Source of the DNA: a virus
Length of the DNA stretch: 64,000 nucleotides
Reading direction: 5' to 3' (one strand)
IMG/VR virus record: IMGVR_UViG_3300025141_012985
Span: 20,178 to 84,177 of that record
A model generated the notes under the pieces. The model was not told the origin of the DNA. It ran no database searches and saw nothing but the letters and a program-made list of their open reading frames with translations. Made by a program: the position numbers and the translations under genes. Each line of letters opens with the position of its first letter. Position 1 is the stretch's first letter. Below, piece by piece: positions 19,801-64,000 of this stretch.

Positions 19801-20599
19801 ATACAGCGCTTCAGGCTCTTTGGTTTTTGATCATCCGCTTAAGACAAACTTAACAACGTCAGTTGTGACATCGTCAATTCTTCACGTCTATTCTGCAAGC
19901 GATAATTCAAATGCAAATACTACTGAGTATTTTAACGGAGAAGCGTTCAGAATTCAGAGTGGAAGCTTTTCTACACAGGCAAATGTTACCTCTATTTCTT
20001 ATAACTGGTCATCTACGGGATCAATAAACGATAATAGTAATTTTTCTGGGTACTACACAGGTCTCATGCTCTATGATGGAAAGTTAATAAGCCCACTAAA
20101 GGGCGGAAACAGCGGAGATTTTAGAAGATATAGTGAGGGAGGAGTTCTTGACGGTCCACCAAGTAATGTAAACTATAGCTCACTTGGTGTTTCAACTAGA
20201 GAATATTACAGAGGATTTTTAAATAATACTACAAATGACAGGCCAAGTGTGACAGTTACAATATACGGAGATGCCACAATTGTAGGAAAGACAGGAGCAA
20301 ACGCTGCTTCACTAGGCACTAATAAGAATATTTTTGTTGAAGTCAATATTCCCGCAAAGACAGCATTTTTAGACTTAGGAAAGCCATCAGCAGGCGCAGG
20401 AAATACTAGTGCAGGAGATGGATGCCTAAGTGGCGATCTTGATTCAACTGTTGATGGAGGAGGTGCAGGAAATACATGCACATTTAATGGGTCTACTGTA
20501 GATGGAACTGTCTCTGGTGCAGAATATCTTGTGATAAAGATATCTGCTCATAAGAGCTGGACTGGGTACGTTTCACAGGTAAGCGTGAGCTGGAGCTAG
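16817..20599 (+). CDS. Tail fibre-type virion protein with internal duplication
   Basis: A 1260-residue Ser/Thr/Gly/Asn-rich, beta-rich protein of phage fibre type. After a ~95-residue N-terminal attachment part, it consists of two long homologous halves. Each begins with 'PDLDDI' (residues about 100 and 676) and contains a 'GWNYARV.H...NYVEWVND' block, a 'HPLK(S/T)NL' block and a 'WTGYVSQ(I/V)' end. The halves are about 576 residues apart. It probably makes an elongated receptor-binding or decoration structure. ATG 16817 follows 'CGGGGTAAAAA'; the next fibre gene starts 1 nt after its stop. Confidence 0.75.
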   Translation: MTAVRVTESSGSVGSIQIADGYGGFLSGTLKAGDNITIADMGSGSFAISASISAGSTIGTAEDSDYSDGLFSSFTSSTEIGTAIDKFNEVLKALAPDPGPDLDDISSKDTGTTGILSFGSSNNQSSGSPAYISVSTSAGLSAVDVNGSYAVTTSSNNIRLGVFDGDTHVSGVLNADVGSNSQGNSVQNYPEFSFGNGETGVLRLEVNGSTIKEIDLTTATIGSGTSGLGTGSYLDSNGSGFNFFSTESTGTLSNGNSFASFKHRTGQFVVASGSQRRGWNYARVSHVMTGTTSNTNYVEWVNDDNADSLAAAGNELSFVGSGSIHLSGIEYFQSGTATYAARVTNAYKYVYDNTDITFTTSNSAAASSSPSFSISAQSKPTIGGGETHAKVLHITGSGAVTSNYFISGALTTGINVTHPLKSNLSNSGQASTTGILMYNLSNTSTAQSETLRREDYRIVSGAYSTQASLTNSANKWDSEKHITGSNGGHSNGLQFYNSRLYSPTSTLRSGDFRDSSESGKLDNSPPGNPNYSGESGQRTFYRWFKNETGSTKYDLTIAINGSGTTIVTAATALNSGRIRVFVKFPSDGTRETGWLDLATEFVLDDYDDNDGAHTANGALSFDSSLNATNYVTLGTVGIGDDEYIGLRIEADTGWTGYISQITVTFGAGTGTISAVPDLDDIDCNDDGTDCNLSFGSSKSISGYTDVGTAAGFSATDVNGKYQTAASSNNLRRSVFALDTIVEGDLNEDVSATSPDYVANSFSDANSGSLVLEINGSDVHTVSLAGAYNNVGAGEPGSGTGTSFTSNSGFFDLSVWRPAEWDNEVPYYPETHRTGKYRVHTGHQRNGWNYARVKHVGTWGTRTTNYVEWVNDSDSNALSADGLTLQPFGDDNLFYLSGVKYFIEPSGSIEVRVSNLYKNVYSDSNSAISFTNLTNATGVRIIQAGTGLSSTKSTNSSTDSLQTLSTTANSQNADAHATGSIQFSRSSSLSGSFSTSYSASGSLVFDHPLKTNLTTSVVTSSILHVYSASDNSNANTTEYFNGEAFRIQSGSFSTQANVTSISYNWSSTGSINDNSNFSGYYTGLMLYDGKLISPLKGGNSGDFRRYSEGGVLDGPPSNVNYSSLGVSTREYYRGFLNNTTNDRPSVTVTIYGDATIVGKTGANAASLGTNKNIFVEVNIPAKTAFLDLGKPSAGAGNTSAGDGCLSGDLDSTVDGGGAGNTCTFNGSTVDGTVSGAEYLVIKISAHKSWTGYVSQVSVSWS
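17116..18840 (+). repeat. Fibre module copy 1
   Basis: First half of the duplicated region of the 16817 fibre gene, from the first 'PDLDDI' codons. It is clearly alike to copy 2 at protein level but diverged at DNA level, so the duplication is old. Confidence 0.7.
18842..20596 (+). repeat. Fibre module copy 2
   Basis: Second half of the duplicated region of the 16817 fibre gene, from the second 'PDLDDI' to the C-terminal 'WTGYVSQVSVSWS'. It preserves the order of blocks seen in copy 1, with a Cys-containing variant ('DCNDDGTDCN') at the start. Confidence 0.7.
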
Positions 20600-34195: not shown

Positions 34196-34205
34196 CCCTA
34201 TTTCA

Positions 34206-34233
34206 TGTAAATTTCTTCAATTTGGTTTAAAAT
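34206..34233 (+). promoter_or_regulatory. Putative phage promoter, TGTAAA-N16-TAAAAT
   Basis: TTCATGTAAATTT with TAAAAT 16 nt after TGTAAA. The predicted transcript would begin at or beside GGAGGT (34241), giving a leader of about 14 nt before the polymerase gene. Confidence 0.5.
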
Positions 34234-34254
34234 TATCATAGGAGGTAGTTGATA

Positions 34255-37200
34255 GTGTTTAATAAGTTTTCTGTGCCCAAGAGATTCGTAGGTCTTCATG
34301 CACATGATGGTAGTTCTGTATACGATGGTCTTGGATATCCCAATGAACATATCGATTTTGTTCTTGAAAACGGGATGGATGCTTTTGCATTAACAAATCA
34401 CGGACATATGAATTCTTCTGCTCATGCTCACAATTATGCTAAGAAGCTAAAGAATAAGGGCATGGGATATAGGCATATCTACGGATGTGAATGCTATTTC
34501 GTAGATGACCTAGATGAATGGAGAAGCGACTATAATGAGTATCGAGAAAAAGTTAGACAGGAAAAGGTGCTTCAAAAGAAATCAAAGAGTGAGATATCTG
34601 AGGGTGATGAGAGTGAAGGTCTAGTCATTGAGAATGAAGATGAATCAAAGGCAGATCGTGGAACGTACCCATCGTGGAAGAAGCGGTACCATCTTGTAGT
34701 TCTTGCTAAGAACTATAAAGGGCTGCAGAATCTCTTTAGATTGGTCAAGAGATCATACAAGGAAGGGTTCTATAGGTTTCCTCGTATTGATTACAAGATG
34801 CTCAAAGAGCACTCTGAGGGACTTATAGTCTCAACAGCTTGTGTTGGGGGTCGGCCGTCTGGCCATATATTCCAACACTTTGAAGGAAAGAGCTTTAATG
34901 AACTAACTCCTGATCTCGTAGATGACCCAGTCGTTCTCAATCAAATTATGAGAAAGCTTGAGAATATGACAGATAGATTTGTTGATGCTGTAGGCGAGGA
35001 AAATTTCTTTCTTGAAATTCAATTCAATGACCTTGTTGCTCAAAATCTTGCCAATAGGTGCATCATTAATCTTTCTGAAAAGACAGGGATCCCACTTCTT
35101 GCAACAGCTGATTCCCACTACTGTAACCCAGATATGTGGGAAGCAAGAGAGATGTATAGGCTGCTTGGAAGAATGGGGTCTCGTGGAGATGAAATGCCCA
35201 AGATTCCTAAAAAGGAAGATTTAAAGTGTGAGCTCTATCCTAAAAATGCACAGCAGATGTGGGATGAATTTGGAAAGAGTTACGATAAATATGACTTCTA
35301 CAAGGGTAGCGAAGAAGCTGTTCGCGGAGCAATTGAGAAATCTTACGGAATTGCATGGGATATGTGTGAAGAAGTCTGGTTTGACGGATCAGCAAAACTT
35401 CCAAACTTTGGAACGCCTGAGAAATCTGCGTTTGCCCAGCTAGTTGAACAGGTAAAAGAGGGAATGGTTAAAGATGGTCTTCATGAAAAACCTGAGTACG
35501 TCGAACGAGTAAGGGAGGAAATGTCTGTCATCAAGAAGCTAGGGTTTGAGAATTACTTTTTAACACTAACTAAGGTATTTGAAAAGTCACAACATAGAAC
35601 TCTACTCGGGCCAGGTCGAGGATCCGGAGGCGGAAGCCTGGTCAATTATGTCCTTGGGATTACACATATTGATCCAATTCAGTATGGCCTTCTATTTGAG
35701 AGGTTTCTAGGTATTCACAAAGCATCATGGCCTGATATTGACTCTGATGTAGGTGATAGAGATGTTCTTATTGACGTTTCTCGTGAGCTTTTTGGTGAAG
35801 ACTCTGTCATACCTGTTTCTAATTTTAATACTTTGAAGTTAAAATCCCTTATCAAGGATGTCTCTAAGTTCTATGGAATTCCGTTTGATAAGATAAATGC
35901 TCTAACTGGACCACTTGAGAGAGAGGTTATGCCACGAGCCATGGGTGATCATGAAGAAAGGTCTACGTATGTCTTAACACACGAAGACTGTATGAAGTAT
36001 AGTGATCCCTATAAAGAGTTCATGGATGAATATCCAAAGATTGCAGAGCATATTAAGTCCTTATTTATGGAGCCAAGGTCGATCGGTCGACATGCAGGAG
36101 GTGTTCTAGTATGTCCAGATCTTGAGAGCAGCATGCCAGTCATTAAGGTCAGGGGCGAACTTCAAACACCCTGGTCTGAGGGAATGAACTGGAGGCATCT
36201 TGAAGAGAATGGATTTCTCAAGTTTGACTTTCTAGGACTTGCAACGCTTAAGATGGTAGAAGATTCCATCAGACTTATCCTAAGAAATCAGGGAGTAGAA
36301 AATCCTACATTTGATGATATCAATAAATTCTTTGATGAAAATATAAACAGTAGATTTCATAAGATGGATGATCAAAAAGTCTGGGAATATGTTTACCATG
36401 ATGGAAGGTTTGTCCAGGTTTTTCAATTCACAAATACAGGCGCTAGAAACTTCTGTGTTGCAGCAAAGCCCAGGTCAATTGAAGATCTTGCTACAATCAC
36501 TGCAATCTATCGTCCAGGGCCCCTTGCTGCAAACGTTCACAGGAAGTATGTAAGAGCAGGCAAGGATATTGAAAATATCACATATGACCACCCTGTCCTT
36601 GAAGAACTTTTAAGTGAAAGTCGAGGATTTGTCGTCTTCCAGGAGCAGTTTATGCTTATTGCTCAAAATCTTTGCGGATTCGACAAGGGAGCATCAGATA
36701 AGATGAGAAAGACTCTTGTCAAGAAGTCTCTCGATATGAATGAAAAGAAGGCAAAAGAAAGGGCTGACCTAAGAAAGAAATTCATTACAGGCGCTGTTGA
36801 TCTATCTGGAATGGAAGAGGATAAAGCGACTAAGCTTTATGAAACAATCGAGGCATTCTCTGCTTACGGATTCAATAAATCACATGCTGTTGCATACGCC
36901 GTTGATTCGTACTATTCCGCATGGCTTCACACATACTATGAGAAGGAGTGGCTTGCCACATGTCTTCAGACATGGAATGGATCTCCAAAGTTTGCAAAGA
37001 TCATAGCTGAGATTAAGTCGCTAGGGTATAAGATTCTTCAACCAGACATTAACGCCTCTTCAGACGTATGGGTATATAGTGATGAAAGAGAGGGATTTGT
37101 TCCACCGCTTACTGCAATTAAGGGTGTTGGTGACTCTGCTGTTGCTGAGATTATGCAAAATAGACCCTATGATTCTCTTGATGATATTCTGTTTACAGAG

Positions 37201-37839
37201 GATGGAAAGTGGAAGTCTTCCAAGCTGAACAAGACAGCATTTGACTCTCTTTGCAAGGTCGAGGCTTTTGGCAGTGTGTCAGAAATGTCTAGCGGAGAGA
37301 TTCAAAATCATAGACAGCTTCATGATATTATTGTTGGAAACTATGATCAGCTGAAGAAAGGCAGATACGGGATGACAAAAACAGCGCATAAGAAACTGCT
37401 TAAGACACAAGGCTCTGTTGAAGAGTTTGTTCCTAAGTTGATCATTGATAACTACGGATCTTCAGACTGGTCTAGAACGCTTAAGATAGGGTTTAGTGTT
37501 GAGCTAATGTCAGGTGCAGATGAGTCTCTTGTCTTTCCTCCTAAAATAATGGAAAAGATTAAGAAGTCTGAACTTAAGCCGATTACTGCACTCTCTGGAA
37601 AGACAAAGGATGTAGTCTGGTTCTGCATTCAGGAAATTATTGAGAAGAAGACCAAAAATGGAAAGATATTCTACAGAATGAGAGTCTGTGATAATAATTC
37701 TGAAAGCTGCTGGCTCAGAGTGTGGACAAAGTTTAAAGAGGTTCCAGACCCATATACGATATGGATTGCAGAAGTTGCATCAACTGAGTCATGGGGGTGT
37801 AGTACATCTTCCTATAAGATGTGGAAGATTAATGTGTGA
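34255..37839 (+). CDS. dnaE: DNA polymerase III alpha subunit (family C, DnaE-type)
   Basis: About 1194 residues. An N-terminal PHP domain ('GLHAHDGSSVYDG', 'TNHGHMNSS', 'YGCECYF') with a ~65-residue charged insert near 100-140, then the family C palm: Asp494 and Asp496 in 'WPDIDSDVGD' and Asp658 in 'KFDFLGLATLKM', then 'YRPGPLAANVHRKYVR' and 'FNKSHAVAYAV', and a HhH-type region ('LTAIKGVGDSAVAEI'). A C-terminal OB-like part follows. No separate proofreading exonuclease is visible. GTG 34255 is preferred (GGAGGT 8 nt upstream) over TTG 34249. The presence of a family C polymerase beside a family A one is unusual. Confidence 0.92.
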   Translation: MFNKFSVPKRFVGLHAHDGSSVYDGLGYPNEHIDFVLENGMDAFALTNHGHMNSSAHAHNYAKKLKNKGMGYRHIYGCECYFVDDLDEWRSDYNEYREKVRQEKVLQKKSKSEISEGDESEGLVIENEDESKADRGTYPSWKKRYHLVVLAKNYKGLQNLFRLVKRSYKEGFYRFPRIDYKMLKEHSEGLIVSTACVGGRPSGHIFQHFEGKSFNELTPDLVDDPVVLNQIMRKLENMTDRFVDAVGEENFFLEIQFNDLVAQNLANRCIINLSEKTGIPLLATADSHYCNPDMWEAREMYRLLGRMGSRGDEMPKIPKKEDLKCELYPKNAQQMWDEFGKSYDKYDFYKGSEEAVRGAIEKSYGIAWDMCEEVWFDGSAKLPNFGTPEKSAFAQLVEQVKEGMVKDGLHEKPEYVERVREEMSVIKKLGFENYFLTLTKVFEKSQHRTLLGPGRGSGGGSLVNYVLGITHIDPIQYGLLFERFLGIHKASWPDIDSDVGDRDVLIDVSRELFGEDSVIPVSNFNTLKLKSLIKDVSKFYGIPFDKINALTGPLEREVMPRAMGDHEERSTYVLTHEDCMKYSDPYKEFMDEYPKIAEHIKSLFMEPRSIGRHAGGVLVCPDLESSMPVIKVRGELQTPWSEGMNWRHLEENGFLKFDFLGLATLKMVEDSIRLILRNQGVENPTFDDINKFFDENINSRFHKMDDQKVWEYVYHDGRFVQVFQFTNTGARNFCVAAKPRSIEDLATITAIYRPGPLAANVHRKYVRAGKDIENITYDHPVLEELLSESRGFVVFQEQFMLIAQNLCGFDKGASDKMRKTLVKKSLDMNEKKAKERADLRKKFITGAVDLSGMEEDKATKLYETIEAFSAYGFNKSHAVAYAVDSYYSAWLHTYYEKEWLATCLQTWNGSPKFAKIIAEIKSLGYKILQPDINASSDVWVYSDEREGFVPPLTAIKGVGDSAVAEIMQNRPYDSLDDILFTEDGKWKSSKLNKTAFDSLCKVEAFGSVSEMSSGEIQNHRQLHDIIVGNYDQLKKGRYGMTKTAHKKLLKTQGSVEEFVPKLIIDNYGSSDWSRTLKIGFSVELMSGADESLVFPPKIMEKIKKSELKPITALSGKTKDVVWFCIQEIIEKKTKNGKIFYRMRVCDNNSESCWLRVWTKFKEVPDPYTIWIAEVASTESWGCSTSSYKMWKINV

Positions 37840-38776: not shown

Positions 38777-39781
38777 ATGGAAAAGAGAGCTTTAGTTACG
38801 GGTGGGTGTGGATTCATCGGTTCAAATCTGACAAGAGAGCTTATTAAGCAGGGCTGGATGGTCGACATTGTAGATGACATGTCGAATGGTCACCTGGAGC
38901 TTCTAGAGGGATTAAATTTTAGAGTCATTCCCAGTTCAGAGTTTCTTATTGAGTTTAATAAGCAGTCTGGAAGGGGAAGGGAAACAGTTGTCGTTATTCA
39001 AGATGACTTTGCATCTCCGGGAATATCATATCAGATATCTAAAAAGATGTATGATGTTGTGTTCCACCAAGCTGCGATCCCTAGAGTTTTATTTTCTGTT
39101 GAAAATCCTGCAATGACAACAGATACAAATATTGGATCAACAGTTAAATTATTTGAAGCCTGCATCGGAAATGTTAAAAGAATTGTCTGGGCTTCATCCT
39201 CTTCAGTGTACGGAGGTGCTGATTTGATGCCTACTTCTGAGGATCATCCGAAGGATCCTAAATCTCCATACGCCTGGCAGAAATCTTCAATAGAAGATCT
39301 GTCTAGAGTTTTTTGCAATCTCTACAATATTGATATTGTATGCTTAAGATATTTTAACGTTTTTGGTCCAGGACAGTACGGAGATTCTCCCTATTCCACT
39401 GCAGTTTCTGCATGGTGCAATGCCATCTTAGAGGGAACACCCTTGAGAAGTGACGGTGACGGAACACAGTCAAGAGATCTTTGCTACATTGACAATGTCG
39501 TTCAGGCAAATATTTTAGCTGCAAATCGTGACGAAAGCTTTGAGGGACAATATTATAATATTGCGTGCGGAGATCGAACGACAAATAATCAAATTCTTAA
39601 TTTCTTTAAAGATAGATTTTCTAATGTTGAAGTAGTCAATGCACCGTGGAGACCTGGAGATGTCATGCACACACAGGCTGATATTACAAGAGCTAGGGAG
39701 GATTTTGGATACGAACCTGTTGTGAGAATTTGGGAAGGACTAGAAAAAACGGTCGAGTGGTGGGATCTAAAGGATGAGTAA
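38777..39781 (+). CDS. NAD-dependent sugar epimerase/dehydratase
   Basis: 334 residues, extended SDR family. It has the Rossmann 'VTGGCGFIGSN' (residues 7-17), 'DDF' and the NAD-contact 'FHQAAIPRV', catalytic Ser in 'ASSSSVYGG', and the 'YAWQK' (YxxxK) pair. This is the UDP-glucose 4-epimerase/dTDP-glucose dehydratase class; substrate not certain. It may modify virion, DNA or host envelope sugars. GAGGTAGAAAT precedes the ATG; the cupin gene overlaps its last 8 nt. Confidence 0.87.
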   Translation: MEKRALVTGGCGFIGSNLTRELIKQGWMVDIVDDMSNGHLELLEGLNFRVIPSSEFLIEFNKQSGRGRETVVVIQDDFASPGISYQISKKMYDVVFHQAAIPRVLFSVENPAMTTDTNIGSTVKLFEACIGNVKRIVWASSSSVYGGADLMPTSEDHPKDPKSPYAWQKSSIEDLSRVFCNLYNIDIVCLRYFNVFGPGQYGDSPYSTAVSAWCNAILEGTPLRSDGDGTQSRDLCYIDNVVQANILAANRDESFEGQYYNIACGDRTTNNQILNFFKDRFSNVEVVNAPWRPGDVMHTQADITRAREDFGYEPVVRIWEGLEKTVEWWDLKDE

Positions 39782-40784: not shown

Positions 40785-41774
40785 ATGATTGAACCAACCA
40801 GCGTGAATTGTGTAATCTATCATGCAAATTGTACAGACGGATTTGGTGCTGCTTATTCTGCCTGGAAGCTGCTAGGCAATCGTGCTGAGTACCATGCATG
40901 TAAGCACGGAACTCCTCCCCCAGATATAAAAGATAAAAATGTCGTAATTTTAGATTTTTCCTTCGATAACACAACTACTAAAAAAATGATTGAAGAGGCT
41001 AATGCGCTTCTAGTCATAGATCATCATAAGTCAGCCATGGTAGAGCTTCATGATATATCAAATACAGTTTTTGATATGACGAAATCTGGTGCAATGCTTT
41101 CATGGGAATTTTTTCATCTAGGAAAAGAGCCGCCAAAATTCATCAAGTATATTCAAGATCGCGATCTTTGGAAATGGGAGCTTGACTATTCTAAAGAGTT
41201 TAGCGCAGCATTTGATATGGTGCCATTTGAATTTGAGGAATTTGAAAAGTTTGAAGATGACTCTGTATTTGATGATGCTGTAAAGCGCGGATCCTATATA
41301 CTTGCATACAGCAAGACAGTTATTAAAAAGGTGTGTGAAAAGGCAGTTGAGAGAAGATATAAAGGAATGAAAGTCATGGTGGTTAATTCTTCTCACTGGA
41401 TGTCTGAGATTGGTGCTAGGTTGGCACCAGACTGTGACTTTGCAGTTATATGGTACTATGATCATGAAGACAGAATTAACAAGATAAGTTTGCGTGCTTT
41501 TCATGACGCAGTTGATGTTTCTGAAATTGCAAAGGGCTTCGGCGGTGGCGGGCATAAGAAGGCAGGTGGCTTTCAAATAAGCGGCGAGCTCTGTGTTGAT
41601 GATATTTTTGATCCCGAGGTAGAGGATGAACATGAAGACCCAGTTGATACTTCTGCTGCAAGGGAAGAGCTTAAAAAGATTCAAAGTGCGCTTGATGAGG
41701 AGTGTGATAAAGAGGCAGTTGCAAAGGTTGAAGAGATCTTAGACAAGATTGAATCTTCCAAGGATGAGGAATAA
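40785..41774 (+). CDS. DHH-family phosphoesterase
   Basis: 329 residues. N-terminal 'HANCTDGFGAAY' and 'LDFSFD' metal sites, the name motif Asp79-His80-His81 ('VIDHHKS'), and a C-terminal DHHA1 'FGGGGHKKAGGFQI' substrate loop. The family includes NrnA oligoribonucleases, RecJ-like enzymes and c-di-AMP phosphodiesterases. Size and 'DGFGAA' are most like the NrnA/nano-RNase group. An acidic helical tail of ~60 residues follows. It may recycle short RNA/DNA to mononucleotides or remove host second messengers; not decidable here. Confidence 0.8.
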   Translation: MIEPTSVNCVIYHANCTDGFGAAYSAWKLLGNRAEYHACKHGTPPPDIKDKNVVILDFSFDNTTTKKMIEEANALLVIDHHKSAMVELHDISNTVFDMTKSGAMLSWEFFHLGKEPPKFIKYIQDRDLWKWELDYSKEFSAAFDMVPFEFEEFEKFEDDSVFDDAVKRGSYILAYSKTVIKKVCEKAVERRYKGMKVMVVNSSHWMSEIGARLAPDCDFAVIWYYDHEDRINKISLRAFHDAVDVSEIAKGFGGGGHKKAGGFQISGELCVDDIFDPEVEDEHEDPVDTSAAREELKKIQSALDEECDKEAVAKVEEILDKIESSKDEE

Positions 41775-58306: not shown

Positions 58307-58498
58307 ATGAGTATTGAAAAGATTCTACCAGATTCTGACATAAAGAATCTAAGATCACAAGGAATTCTTGAAGACTGTGAAGTTGCAATTCAAGTTGGAG
58401 ATATAGTAATTGCTGAAAATGTTCTTACTAAATCTAGAAGGGTTTTAGATTCTAGCTTAGTCTTATCTGAATCAAATAGAAAAATTCTAAAGGGATGA
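58307..58498 (+). CDS. Very small protein upstream of groEL
   Basis: 63 residues, with 'DCEVAIQVGDIVIAENVLTKSRRVLDSS'. The ending overlaps the ribosome binding site of groEL. It lacks the mobile loop and length of GroES. Unknown; co-expressed with GroEL. Confidence 0.55.
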   Translation: MSIEKILPDSDIKNLRSQGILEDCEVAIQVGDIVIAENVLTKSRRVLDSSLVLSESNRKILKG

Positions 58499-58500
58499 GC

Positions 58501-60111
58501 ATGATTCGAACTAATAAGATTATTAAGTTTGATACTGTAGCTAGGGAGAGACTCTTAGAGGGTGTTAATATTTTAGCAAATGCCGTTAAGATAACTATGG
58601 GACCTAGAGGCCAGAATGTGATTATTGAACAGCAGTCTGGATCACCAACTCTAACTAAGGATGGTGTGACTGTTGCAAAGGCTGTGAACTTAAAAGATCA
58701 GTTTAATAATCTTGGAGTTCAAATTATCAAAGAGGCTGCGTCTAGAACTGCAGATGTCGCAGGAGATGGAACTACAACTGCTACTGTCCTGTCTCAGTCT
58801 ATATTTTCTGAGGGTGTAAAAATGCTTGCTGCTGGATTTCAATCGTCTGAGTTAAAAGCAGGAATTGAAACGGCTGTTCATGATGTCATACAGAGCTTGA
58901 GAGACATGTCAGTAGAGGTTACCTCTGACCTAGAGATAGAAAATGTAGGAACTATTTCTGCTAATGGAGAAAGTGAAATAGGAGAGCTCTTAGTCAAGGC
59001 AATTAACTCTGTCGGGAGAGATGGTGTTATTACGGTTGAAGAGGCAAAGGGATTTAATACAACACTGACGACAGTAGAGGGAATGAAAATAGAGAGAGGA
59101 TATCTTTCTCCCTATTTTATAAACAATCAAGATAAAATGATGTGTGAGATTAAAAATCCCCTAATCTTGCTTTCAAATAGTAAGATTTCAAATCTCAAAG
59201 ATATTATGAAAATTTTAGAAGAAGTCTTAGATTCAGGAAGGCCGTTATTTGTAATTGCTGATGATGTAGACGGCGATGCTATGCAGGGTCTTGTAGTTAA
59301 TCACATTAAGGGGACACTTCAGTCGTGTGCAATCCGAGCACCTGGATTTGGAGAAAACAGAGTTGCTATGCTTCAAGATCTTTCAATTCTATTAGATTGT
59401 GATATTATTTCTGAATCAACAGGAGTTTCGTTTAAAGATGCTTCAATAGAGAATCTTGGAACATGCAAGAGAATTGTTTGTGGAAAATCTGATACTGTAT
59501 TCATAGGGTGTTCAGGAGAGTCTGAAAAAATTAAGGATAGAGTCTTATCAATAAGAGAAAGACTGAAAGATAGGCTTATTGAAGATGCTGAAGTGTCTCT
59601 CTTAAAGGATAGATTATCCAAGCTTTCAGGCGGTGTTGCAATACTTAGAGTCGGCGGTGCTACAGAAATAGAACTTGGTGAAAGAAAAGATAGAGTCGAT
59701 GATGCTCTTCACGCAACGCAAGCCGCAATTGAAGAAGGAATCTTGCCTGGAGGTGGAGTTGCGCTTGTAAGGGCATCACAGTCACTTGATAAAAGATCAA
59801 ATGATAAGATGACAGGAGTCGATGCAGGAATTCAAATAGTTAGAAAGGCTTGCTGTGAACCTCTCCGCCAGATAGTGATAAACTCAGGAGGAACACCAGA
59901 TGTTGTTCTTGATAGAGTGATGTCTTTAGATTCTAGGCATGGGTACAATGCTTTCACAAATGAATATGGAGATATGATGTCTATGGGAATTATAGATCCA
60001 CTAAAGGTTGTTAGAACTGCTTTGGAAAATGCTTCATCTGCTGCTTCAATGATGCTTACTGTTGGATGTACAATGATTGAAGAAGAAATAGAGAGTTCTC
60101 AATCATTTTAG
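58501..60111 (+). CDS. groEL: GroEL chaperonin
   Basis: About 536 residues, full-length group I chaperonin. Readable: 'MGPRGQNVII', 'TKDGVTVAKA', 'AGDGTTTATVL' (ATP site), 'PYFINNQDKM' (apical domain), 'RAPGFGENRVAMLQD' and 'RVDDALHATQAAIEEG' (the ATPase Asp398 region), then 'GYNAFTNEYGDMMSMGIIDP'. It ends 'EEEIESSQSF' without the Gly-Gly-Met tail of E. coli GroEL. ATG 58501 has AGGG 6 nt upstream. No GroES gene is visible here, so it would use the host GroES or an unlike co-chaperonin encoded elsewhere. Confidence 0.95.
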   Translation: MIRTNKIIKFDTVARERLLEGVNILANAVKITMGPRGQNVIIEQQSGSPTLTKDGVTVAKAVNLKDQFNNLGVQIIKEAASRTADVAGDGTTTATVLSQSIFSEGVKMLAAGFQSSELKAGIETAVHDVIQSLRDMSVEVTSDLEIENVGTISANGESEIGELLVKAINSVGRDGVITVEEAKGFNTTLTTVEGMKIERGYLSPYFINNQDKMMCEIKNPLILLSNSKISNLKDIMKILEEVLDSGRPLFVIADDVDGDAMQGLVVNHIKGTLQSCAIRAPGFGENRVAMLQDLSILLDCDIISESTGVSFKDASIENLGTCKRIVCGKSDTVFIGCSGESEKIKDRVLSIRERLKDRLIEDAEVSLLKDRLSKLSGGVAILRVGGATEIELGERKDRVDDALHATQAAIEEGILPGGGVALVRASQSLDKRSNDKMTGVDAGIQIVRKACCEPLRQIVINSGGTPDVVLDRVMSLDSRHGYNAFTNEYGDMMSMGIIDPLKVVRTALENASSAASMMLTVGCTMIEEEIESSQSF

Positions 60112-61146: not shown

Positions 61147-61157
61147 ACTGACATACG

Positions 61158-61185
61158 TGTAAAGAGCATAATGAAGTGTTATAAT
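61158..61185 (+). promoter_or_regulatory. Putative phage promoter, TGTAAA-N16-TATAAT
   Basis: ACGTGTAAAGAG with TATAAT 16 nt after TGTAAA. It would start a transcript with an ~75-nt leader carrying the hairpin and repeats at 61193-61240. Confidence 0.5.
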
Positions 61186-61266: not shown

Positions 61267-61491
61267 ATGAAGAAGTTCAATACTGATAGAATTTCAGTTA
61301 TGCCTGATGATGAGTTGAATTCAAATGTTTCAAAAATCAAAAATCAGCTCTCATATAGAAATCAAAGAGATAGTAGAGAAAATTTAGAAATCGAACTCTG
61401 CTATCTTCAGAGAGAAGTTTTTATTAGAAAGCTTCGAAAAAACGCGCATGAAAACTATCTTAAAACAAGAAGCTTTAAGAGAAGAGAATAA
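61267..61491 (+). CDS. Small helical protein
   Basis: 74 residues, charged and helical ('ELNSNVSKIKNQLSYRNQRDSRENLEIELCYLQREVFI'), Arg/Lys-rich end. GGAG 6 nt upstream of the ATG. It has its own promoter and terminator-like element, so it is a single-gene unit that may be abundant early. Unknown function. Confidence 0.6.
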   Translation: MKKFNTDRISVMPDDELNSNVSKIKNQLSYRNQRDSRENLEIELCYLQREVFIRKLRKNAHENYLKTRSFKRRE

Positions 61492-61545: not shown

Positions 61546-61575
61546 TTGACAGATATATCTGTCATCAACCATATT
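61546..61575 (+). promoter_or_regulatory. Sigma gene promoter overlapped by an 18-bp perfect palindrome
   Basis: TTGACA (61546-61551) with a -10-like CATATT 18 nt downstream (61570-61575). TGACAGATATATCTGTCA (61547-61564) is a perfect 18-bp palindrome covering most of the -35 and the spacer, which is the classic place for a repressor operator. It lies 17 nt before the sigma gene ATG when measured from CATATT. Operator function is inference; the palindrome is directly seen. Confidence 0.65.
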
Positions 61576-61592: not shown

Positions 61593-62327
61593 ATGTCAAA
61601 CGTATTAAACTATTATTTTAAAGATGTATCTAGGTATGATCTACTTACTCGTGAAGAAGAGATTTCACTTTCTCAAAGGATTGAGAAGGGAGACCTGCAA
61701 GCAAGAGATCATATGATTCAATCTAATTTAAGGCTGGCAATCAGTATTGCAAAAAAATATTCTAGAATGGGATGCCCACTCGAAGACCTAATTCAAGAAT
61801 CTAACATTGGGCTTATGAAAGCAGTTGATAGATTTGACTGGCGAAGAGGGTTTAAATTTAGCACATATGCTAGCTGGTGGATTAAGCAATCTGTAAGTCG
61901 GCACCTTACTTCTCACAAGTCAACAGTCAGAGTCCCAGCACACGCTTCAGGTCTAATCTGGAAAATTAAAAAGCTTTGCAAAGAATATGAGGATGAATTT
62001 AAAAATCAACCTACAATTTCAGAAATTGCTGATCTTTTAGGTGTAACAGAGTCAATGGTTAAGCTAAGTATGGAGTCTGCTGTAATTCAAAATTCAATCT
62101 CTTTAGATGCTGCACTTGGTGATGAAAAAAATGGGAGAAGATTTGAAGAAATTATTTCTGATGATAGGACTGAGTCTCCAGATGACTCCCTTGATAGGCA
62201 AAAGACGCTTGCAGTTATTAAGCAATCTTTGTCAAAGTTGTCACCAAGAGAAGAAAAAATTCTAAGACTTAGATTCGGAATCTATGAAGACATAGAGCAT
62301 GATGAAGAGTTTAACATAACATCTTAA
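61593..62327 (+). CDS. Sigma-70 family factor lacking region 4.2
   Basis: 244 residues. It has sigma region 1.2-like 'YYFKDVSRYDLLTREEEISLSQRIEKGD', region 2 ('LRLAISIAKKYSRMGCPLEDLIQESNIGLMKAVDRFDWRRGFKFSTYASWWIKQSV', with the -10-binding RpoD box), region 3 ('ISEIADLLGVTESMVKLSME', 'SISLDAALGD..GRRFEEII') and region 4.1 ('LSKLSPREEKILRLRFGI'). It stops just before the helix-turn-helix that reads the -35. No clear Shine-Dalgarno sequence precedes ATG 61593. It resembles sigma factors such as T4 gp55 that lack region 4 and need a helper. The next gene holds a lone helix-turn-helix in the same frame. Confidence 0.87.
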   Translation: MSNVLNYYFKDVSRYDLLTREEEISLSQRIEKGDLQARDHMIQSNLRLAISIAKKYSRMGCPLEDLIQESNIGLMKAVDRFDWRRGFKFSTYASWWIKQSVSRHLTSHKSTVRVPAHASGLIWKIKKLCKEYEDEFKNQPTISEIADLLGVTESMVKLSMESAVIQNSISLDAALGDEKNGRRFEEIISDDRTESPDDSLDRQKTLAVIKQSLSKLSPREEKILRLRFGIYEDIEHDEEFNITS

Positions 62328-62357
62328 TTATAATAAATTTTAATTCAAGGAGAAAAA

Positions 62358-62639
62358 ATGTCTATGCCAAAGGGACTAAAGATAGATAGGGGATACGCCA
62401 CAGTCACTGATACTGATGGGATGGGATACCGTGAAATAGCTGAAAAGATGACAGGCGATGGATTTAAGATGAATCACTCTACTGCAAGGAATATATTTAT
62501 TTCAGCTATGAGGAAGATTGCAGAAGATATGATCACACTTTACGATACAAATCCTGATCAAGAAAAAATTGATCAAGTTTCAATAGACCCTAGATTTCAG
62601 TCAGGCGTCTCTGAAGCGATTAGAGATCTTGAGGTATAA
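62358..62639 (+). CDS. Lone helix-turn-helix protein resembling sigma region 4.2
   Basis: 93 residues with its own AAGGAG. Residues about 20-55 'GMGYREIAEKMTGDGFKMNHSTARNIFISAMRKIAEDM' follow the plan of sigma region 4.2 (T..EIG..L.VS..RVRQIE..AL.KLR): recognition helix in the second half, then a basic helix. An acidic tail follows. It is in the same frame as the sigma gene, 30 nt downstream, but two further in-frame stops and a good ribosome binding site separate them. Likely the detached part of the sigma factor, or a separate regulator. Confidence 0.68.
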   Translation: MSMPKGLKIDRGYATVTDTDGMGYREIAEKMTGDGFKMNHSTARNIFISAMRKIAEDMITLYDTNPDQEKIDQVSIDPRFQSGVSEAIRDLEV

Positions 62640-62642
62640 GCC

Positions 62643-62933
62643 TTGCTAAAGTTTATTTTTTCTGAGCTTTCTAATATTTCAAAGCAGACAGCTCTTCTTG
62701 AATCTCTTGGTTGGTCAGAAGAAAAGCTTGAAGAAGTTTTGCAAATATGCAATTCATCTATTTTAAAAATGACAGATAATTCTCATGAATATTCTTCACC
62801 TAATAGGTTTAGAGATGAGATCTCTCATGATCTACGTGACATTCTTACAGAAGATCAGACAAAGGCTGTTTTAGACATACTTAATGATATCATATCACAA
62901 AGTCTAGAGGGGATTATGTCAGATGGGAACTAA
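62643..62933 (+). CDS. Small helical protein
   Basis: 96 residues, start TTG 62643 three bases after the previous stop. Helical ('ISKQTALLESLGWSEEKLEEVLQI', 'ISHDLRDILTEDQTKAVLDILNDIISQ'). Its end overlaps the next gene. Unknown. Confidence 0.52.
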   Translation: MLKFIFSELSNISKQTALLESLGWSEEKLEEVLQICNSSILKMTDNSHEYSSPNRFRDEISHDLRDILTEDQTKAVLDILNDIISQSLEGIMSDGN

Positions 62934-63225
62934 GTGGGATTATTATAGACAGAGAAGGGCGATAGACGTCTGTAAGTGGTCAGATCACTTAAAGATCAAG
63001 ACATATAAAGATATGTGCAAATATCTTTTAAGCATAGGTGTGATACCTCCGCAGGATGATCACGATGATGTTATTAAAATTTTATCTCTATCTCAACGTA
63101 AAGAGGTGAAACAAGACATCTCTAAGAAAGATGTATCAAAGACACCGAAGTCGAAAAGTAATCCAAAAAAACGGTTGACAAAAAAGAGGACATTAAATAA
63201 AACAAATAAAAGTAAAAAAATGTGA
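62923..63225 (+). CDS. Small basic protein
   Basis: 100 residues. The first 50 ('KWDYYRQRRAIDVCKWSDHLKIKTYKDMCKYLLSIGVIPP') are a compact helical domain I associate with phage regulatory or accessory proteins; the last 35 are very Lys-rich and probably bind nucleic acid or RNA polymerase. It sits next to the sigma genes, so a co-activator role is possible, only by position. Confidence 0.58.
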   Translation: MGTKWDYYRQRRAIDVCKWSDHLKIKTYKDMCKYLLSIGVIPPQDDHDDVIKILSLSQRKEVKQDISKKDVSKTPKSKSNPKKRLTKKRTLNKTNKSKKM

Positions 63226-63692: not shown

Positions 63693-64000
63693 ATGAGACT
63701 TAGATTAAACGAAGTTAGAAAAATTATTAGAAAGCAGTTAATTCATCTTATTCTAGAGGCAGATGACGACGAAGAAAAGTCTCCAGGAGAGATGGCTGAA
63801 GAAGAAGAAGAAGAAGACGACGAAGAAGAAGAAGAAGACGACGAAGAAGACGACGAAGAAGAAGACGAAGAAGACGACGAAGACGAAGACGAAGACGAAG
63901 ACGACGAAGACGAAGACGACGACGAAGACGAAGAATCTGGAATTACAGGGGATAAGGCAAAAGTTGAAGTTGACAAAGCTTGGTCTGAAGGCAGGACGTT
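63693..64000 (+). CDS. Acidic virion-type protein, 3' truncated
   Basis: Starts at ATG 63693 with GAGAGGG upstream and is still open at the window end (about 102 codons seen). Residues 4-20 'RLNEVRKIIRKQLIHLILEA' hold the recurring helix; then a nearly pure Asp/Glu run of about 45 residues from residue 36. The leader (TACTTAT at 63671, then GAGAGGG) closely matches that of the 4617 gene. Confidence 0.65.
   Translation, partial: MRLRLNEVRKIIRKQLIHLILEADDDEEKSPGEMAEEEEEEDDEEEEEDDEEDDEEEDEEDDEDEDEDEDDEDEDDDEDEESGITGDKAKVEVDKAWSEGRT
63799..63935 (+). repeat. GAA/GAC low-complexity tract
   Basis: A run of GAA and GAC codons coding almost only Glu and Asp, interior to the partial gene at 63693. 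Irregular order, no fixed long unit; likely to vary in length by slippage. Confidence 0.85.

Follow-up and report, generated by a model that had tools for sequence, protein, structure and literature searches.

A candidate two-subunit phage sigma factor with a break inside domain 4 and an associated non-canonical -35 box

Two-part sigma factors are rare, and the cases found in the literature searched are gp55/gp33 of phage T4 and SigO-RsoA of Bacillus subtilis. In T4, where the pair has been called a split sigma factor (PMC2988020), the whole of domain 4 is removed from gp55 and the missing part is replaced by gp33, a protein that binds both the beta flap and the sliding clamp and does not recognise DNA; the genes for the two proteins are widely separated, and a -35 element is absent from T4 late promoters. 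In SigO-RsoA, two proteins share the sigma function and supply separate -10 and -35 parts (PMC10028694), SigO being a recognisable sigma4 and RsoA a sigma2, and the break separating domain 2 from domain 4. The literature searched contained no account of a sigma factor with its break between regions 4.1 and 4.2. Phage SPO1 offers another phage pair, gp33 and gp34, which act together on late promoters. The locus presented here shares with gp55/gp33 a sigma factor whose domain 4 is incomplete, a small phage protein encoded separately and the probable use of host RNA polymerase, and with SigO-RsoA the putative joint supply of sigma function by two proteins. It differs from both in that the break lies inside domain 4, after region 4.1. 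Unlike the T4 genes, the two genes lie in one operon and the partner is a predicted helix-turn-helix (HTH) protein; unlike the SigO-RsoA pair, the partner has no detectable sigma homology.

The window analysed here is a stretch of 64,000 nt from an uncultivated virus (IMGVR_UViG_3300025141_012985, positions 20,178 to 84,177), whose record is an 84-kb viral contig carrying a phage replication and metabolism gene set together with GroEL. A sigma-70 factor of 244 residues is encoded at 61593-62327 on the plus strand, and its assignment to regions 1.2, 2, 3 and 4.1, without region 4.2, draws on Pfam, a PDB search, an AF2 model with fold search and alignment. It scores above the Pfam cut-offs for PF04542 (72.9 bits), PF04539 (40.7 bits) and PF00140 (43.9 bits), and fold search groups its AF2 model with sigma factors. 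As with RpoD, SigA and RpoS, regions 1.2 to 4.1 align over about 220 residues, with PDB matches to RpoD reaching an E-value of 1e-48; the RpoD/SigA alignment ends just past region 4.1, and of the 50 positions of the region-4 model PF04545 the match covers only 2-25, such that neither Pfam nor alignment detects a complete region 4 that includes the 4.2 helix-turn-helix. The protein ends in LRLRFGI followed by 14 residues, and the 15 residues after RLRFG form an acidic tail (62280-62324, plus strand) at the point where region 4.2 would be expected to begin; in nearly all relatives this tail is 12-29 residues long. The original prediction that the sigma protein stops where region 4.2 should start is thus borne out by Pfam, by alignment and by the 73 distinct loci considered below. 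Relative to its nearest relative the sigma protein is 87% identical in amino acids (dN 0.10, dS 2.3), indicating purifying selection.

The second gene (62358-62639, plus strand) begins 30 nt past the stop codon of sigma, shares its frame and has its own AAGGAG ribosome-binding site (62347-62352, plus strand), an arrangement that had been predicted and that the ORF coordinates confirm. It encodes a 93-residue HTH protein which, on the strength of its AF2 model, a 58-member alignment and its linkage to sigma, we propose as the -35-reading subunit. The AF2 model (pLDDT 81.6) has helices at 24-33, 40-62, 68-75 and 78-92 with residues 1-18 disordered, and predicts a confident helix pair (24-33/40-62) whose turn is longer than that of sigma 4.2, together with an additional hairpin at the C-terminus. 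Eight residues are invariant in the alignment (M38, N39, S41, R44, N45, K53, F80 and Q81), and conservation is highest in the opening residues of the recognition helix, M-N-H-S-[TS]-[AV]-R-N, and in the FQ at 80-81. Identity to the nearest relative is 81% at the amino acid level, with dN 0.13 and saturated dS, again indicating purifying selection, and a GGAG-like site precedes 63 of the 73 distinct HTH genes.

This protein had also been described as sigma 4.2-like, and on this point the outcome is divided: the HTH is predicted by AF2, while the likeness to region 4.2 found no match in Pfam, PHROG, PDB or fold searches. Specifically, HMM comparison with sigma region 4 profiles gave no sigma match; neither Pfam nor PHROG returned sigma for the window protein, no sigma family is among the Pfam and PHROG families listed for the 58 relatives, and the PDB yielded no sigma sequence match for either the single protein or the 58-member set. 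A PDB fold search with the model gave no significant match, and the best viral fold match was one uncharacterised phage protein. Direct comparison of the HTH and 4.2 profiles gave an alignment whose register is as expected and in which the turn of the HTH protein is 5 residues longer, scoring 13.8 against 8.0 +/- 2.1 for shuffled columns (5 of 200 as high) and 16.5 for a region-3 HTH control, a similarity that would be only that of HTH motifs in general. Pfam, PHROG, PDB-HMM, hhalign and Foldseek all lacked a significant match to region 4.2, and homology to it is not demonstrated. The idea that the long-gap sigma tail YPITEEEARxVMxGKGLT derives from the first helix of 4.2 was dropped, the likeness being suggestive only by eye and finding no Pfam support. 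Because 4.2 homology could not be shown, functional replacement of region 4.2 is better supported than the literal splitting of an ancestral gene.

The association between the two genes was examined across viral contigs from both sides. A first sigma-seeded scan gave 33 loci, in 27 of which sigma ends at the same point and the HTH gene is present; in five complete relatives (L028 and L031-L034) region 4.2 is intact and the HTH gene absent, and the remaining locus runs off its contig. An HTH-seeded scan gave 181 relatives, 80 of which were kept; taken together, all HTH-bearing loci (108/108, representing 73 distinct HTH sequences) have a truncated sigma gene upstream on the same strand. Finally, a broader sigma scan of one viral collection returned 523 matching stretches, and the best 80 of these are all truncated and accompanied by the HTH gene (80/80); one was missed by the motif and found to be truncated on inspection, and three have tails of 36-56 residues without region 4.2. 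No ORF holds both sigma and HTH. The HTH had no match in a collection of isolated phages with three diverse queries, and none in bacteria or archaea searched at one genome per species. The sigma tree fits one origin of the split form (parsimony gives two changes, and well-supported branches force only one), and the sigma and HTH distance matrices correlate with r = 0.86, which shows that the two have co-evolved.

The loci fall into a short-gap group, in which the distance between the genes is -23 to +38 nt (42 loci), and a long-gap group with 211-718 nt and one or two small genes between them (31 loci). The pair predicted in the window was therefore recovered in related phages, in 73 distinct loci and independently in the 80/80 sigma-seeded set, and the genes remain in one operon throughout rather than becoming unlinked. 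Reading frames are mixed across the pairs, dividing 12/15/15 among the 42 close ones, so that the shared frame in the window is incidental; as the frames and gaps vary, stop-codon readthrough or frameshifting that would join the two ORFs was ruled out. Sequencing error was rejected as the cause of the break, which recurs in 73 distinct loci while the relatives with intact 4.2 have no HTH gene. Since the pair recurs in both scans and purifying selection acts on each gene, we regard the genes as real and the break as conserved, rather than a product of chance or error, and a partnership between the two proteins is very likely.

These patterns also bear on the suggestion that the HTH protein is only an autorepressor of the operon or an anti-sigma factor, with sigma working without any region 4.2. 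Small HTH proteins beside sigma genes are often regulators, and ahead of the sigma gene, at 61547-61564, there is a perfect 18-bp palindrome that overlaps a TTGACA-like site. However, a dispensable regulator would be expected to be lost or replaced somewhere, whereas loci that are deeply diverged show 100% pairing whether approached from sigma or from the HTH gene, and sigma factors with their own region 4.2 have no HTH gene; we therefore give this explanation only a slim chance.

Further evidence comes from the promoters of these genomes. Any 5-mer or hexamer, at any spacing before TANNNT, was counted in a blind scan, with expected counts taken from the other spacings. Genomes with the split sigma have in common a box, RTG(C/T/A)AA, located 17-18 nt before TANNNT. 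In the intergenic regions around the loci, GTGCAA-N18 occurs 27 times in the long-gap clade against 0.5 expected, and the short-gap clade has GTGTAA-N17 15 times (1.2 expected) and GTGCAA-N17 7 times (0.3 expected); TGTAA, TGCAA or TGAAA, at N17 in short-gap and N18 in long-gap loci, ranks first or close to first in most contigs. Over whole contigs, G008 has 28 GTGCAA-N18 (0.2 expected) and 22 GTGAAA-N18 (0.3 expected), G007 has 29 occurrences of the box (1.9 expected), and G003 has 21 GTGTAA-N17 (4.5 expected). A 5-mer count for G003 is 17 TGTAA-N17 (1.7 expected). When restricted to upstream regions, the scan found TGTAA-N17 11 times against 0.7 in G006, the nearest relative of the window, 14 against 2.0 in G005 and 10 against 1.5 in G015, along with TGAAA-N17 8 times against 1.5 in G004. 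Some contigs, G019 among them, have no clear box. TTGAC is not enriched in split-sigma contigs. Of three relatives with a full-length sigma, none has the TGYAA box, and weak canonical-like signals appear in two. Applied to two other phages as a positive control, the scan recovered the early -35 sequence GTTTAC of T4 and, in cyanophage MA01, the canonical TTGAC, while TGYAA gave no signal in either.

The window itself holds only two promoters of the RTG(C/T/A)AA class, both with counterparts in the nearest relative. One lies before the sigma operon, with GTGTAA at 61157-61162 followed after 17 nt by TATAAT at 61180-61185 (both plus strand), and the same -35-like sequence precedes the sigma operon of that relative. 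The other, ATGTAA-N17-TAAAAT (34205-34233, plus strand), precedes the dnaE-like gene at 34249-37839, as it does in the nearest relative. A scan of the window end with the consensus sigma-70 promoter produced many weak matches and was uninformative. In G008 (loci L152-L157) an ATG stands exactly 6 nt past the -10 element in 27 of 55 promoters and the mRNAs are therefore probably leaderless, perhaps reflecting an actinobacterial-type host.

Each of 16 contigs encodes one clear sigma factor (G001 has a sub-threshold second match), and the RNA polymerase beta subunit was not detected in any of the 16, which led us to dismiss a polymerase of the phage's own. With one sigma and no detectable beta per contig, the sigma factor most likely acts on the host polymerase. 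We propose a sigma factor of two subunits, sigma (regions 1.2-4.1) and the 93-residue HTH protein, which together would redirect host RNA polymerase: the sigma subunit would bind the core enzyme and read and melt the -10 element TANNNT, while the HTH protein would occupy the position of region 4.2 and read the phage-specific box RTG(C/T/A)AA 17-18 nt upstream. We infer that the HTH protein touches sigma, or else the beta flap, and that it is this protein, rather than another, that reads the box. Such a system would depart from ordinary sigma-70 in its missing region 4.2 and in promoters without TTGACA, and, if these are indeed its promoters, from T4 in having a -35-spaced element. Among the explanations considered this two-protein sigma, with the HTH replacing region 4.2 and reading the box with host RNA polymerase, is in our judgement the best, and is probably correct.

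It is conceivable, though rather unlikely, that the RTGYAA promoters are instead early promoters read by the host sigma, like T4 GTTTAC, and that sigma and the HTH protein serve a later gene class with other promoters. Annotated genes behind the box are of early or middle type (dnaE, 5'-3' exonuclease, DNA ligase and ATPases), and for this reason the host-sigma reading stays a rival; many small clustered ORFs also lie behind these promoters, the sigma operon itself carries one, and T4 early promoters likewise deviate from TTGACA. However, the box at N17 matches TTGACA at about 3 of 6 positions, compared with 5 of 6 for that of T4, and it recurs across a GC range of 33-62%, as do the recognition-helix residues S, R and N, which are invariant. 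This poor match and wide GC range make a phage-encoded reader more likely. TTGAC shows no enrichment in these contigs, and the distribution of the box follows the lineage with the split sigma and not a particular host.

A second alternative, which we consider improbable, resembles T4 more closely: sigma would use -10-only promoters, the HTH protein would be a gp33-like, flap-bound co-activator or repressor that does not read a -35 element, and the box would belong to another factor, for example the product of gene 4. It has a precedent in gp55, which lacks domain 4 and whose vacant site gp33 fills without recognising DNA (PMC2988020). Another protein could read the box since two further genes are almost as tightly linked, both conserved in the sigma-HTH operon of both clades: gene A (61267-61491, plus strand), of about 75 residues and just upstream of sigma, and gene 4 (62923-63225, plus strand), of 100 residues with a basic tail and located after the HTH gene, each present in 64 of 73 distinct loci. 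Unlike gp33, however, the HTH protein has a predicted helix-turn-helix in which the N-terminal segment of the recognition helix is invariant, and these genomes have a strong -35-like box where T4 late promoters have none. Covariation between recognition helix and box was sought and rejected, as the two do not change together: G012 and G014 (MNLST) still have TGTAA, weakly, and L288 (ISIST) still has RTGCAA. That the change from MNHST to ISIST in L288 leaves the box as it was counts against the model in which the HTH protein reads it.

The original prediction of a new two-part phage sigma factor is thus well supported by invariant linkage, by the fact that the HTH gene and an intact region 4.2 exclude each other and by the shared -35 box, while the proposed homology to region 4.2 is not. 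Whether the pair constitutes an undescribed class of two-subunit sigma factor, in which the break lies inside domain 4 and an HTH protein not detectably related to 4.2 replaces it and reads RTG(C/T/A)AA, so that a large phage lineage would impose a promoter code of its own on the host enzyme, we judge to be evenly balanced. The split form is essentially fixed in a large lineage (the best 80 of 523 matches are all split) with its own recognisable -35 box, and the assignment of -10 and -35 reading to separate proteins can be put to a direct test with defined promoters and with proteins that are small and easy to make. The box furthermore offers a way of predicting gene starts and regulons in phages without a cultured relative, and the sigma-HTH pair is a candidate orthogonal two-input transcription system.

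Several further features of the region were observed. The palindrome TGACAGATATATCTGTCA at 61547-61564, just before the sigma start, is a possible operator or processing hairpin, and a similar dyad, TGACACA-N4-TGTGTCA, stands before sigma in the nearest relative. A 96-residue ORF follows the HTH gene (62643-62933, plus strand) and is conserved in 28 of the 42 short-gap loci, and a phage GroEL of 538 residues is encoded at 58495-60111, a little upstream of the sigma region. The dnaE-like gene specifies a phage-encoded DNA polymerase III alpha subunit of bacterial type (1196 residues), alongside a UvsX-like recombinase and a DnaB-like helicase, and the dnaE of relatives also sits behind the same promoter class. 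Elsewhere the window carries a gene resembling NAD-dependent epimerases and GDP-mannose dehydratases (38777-39781) and one resembling DHH/DHHA1-family phosphoesterases (40785-41774). Finally, the ORF starting at 63693 contains a long acidic, D/E-rich stretch of low complexity made up of GAC/GAA repeats (63750-63940), and similar DNA also occurs in Erwinia jumbo phages.
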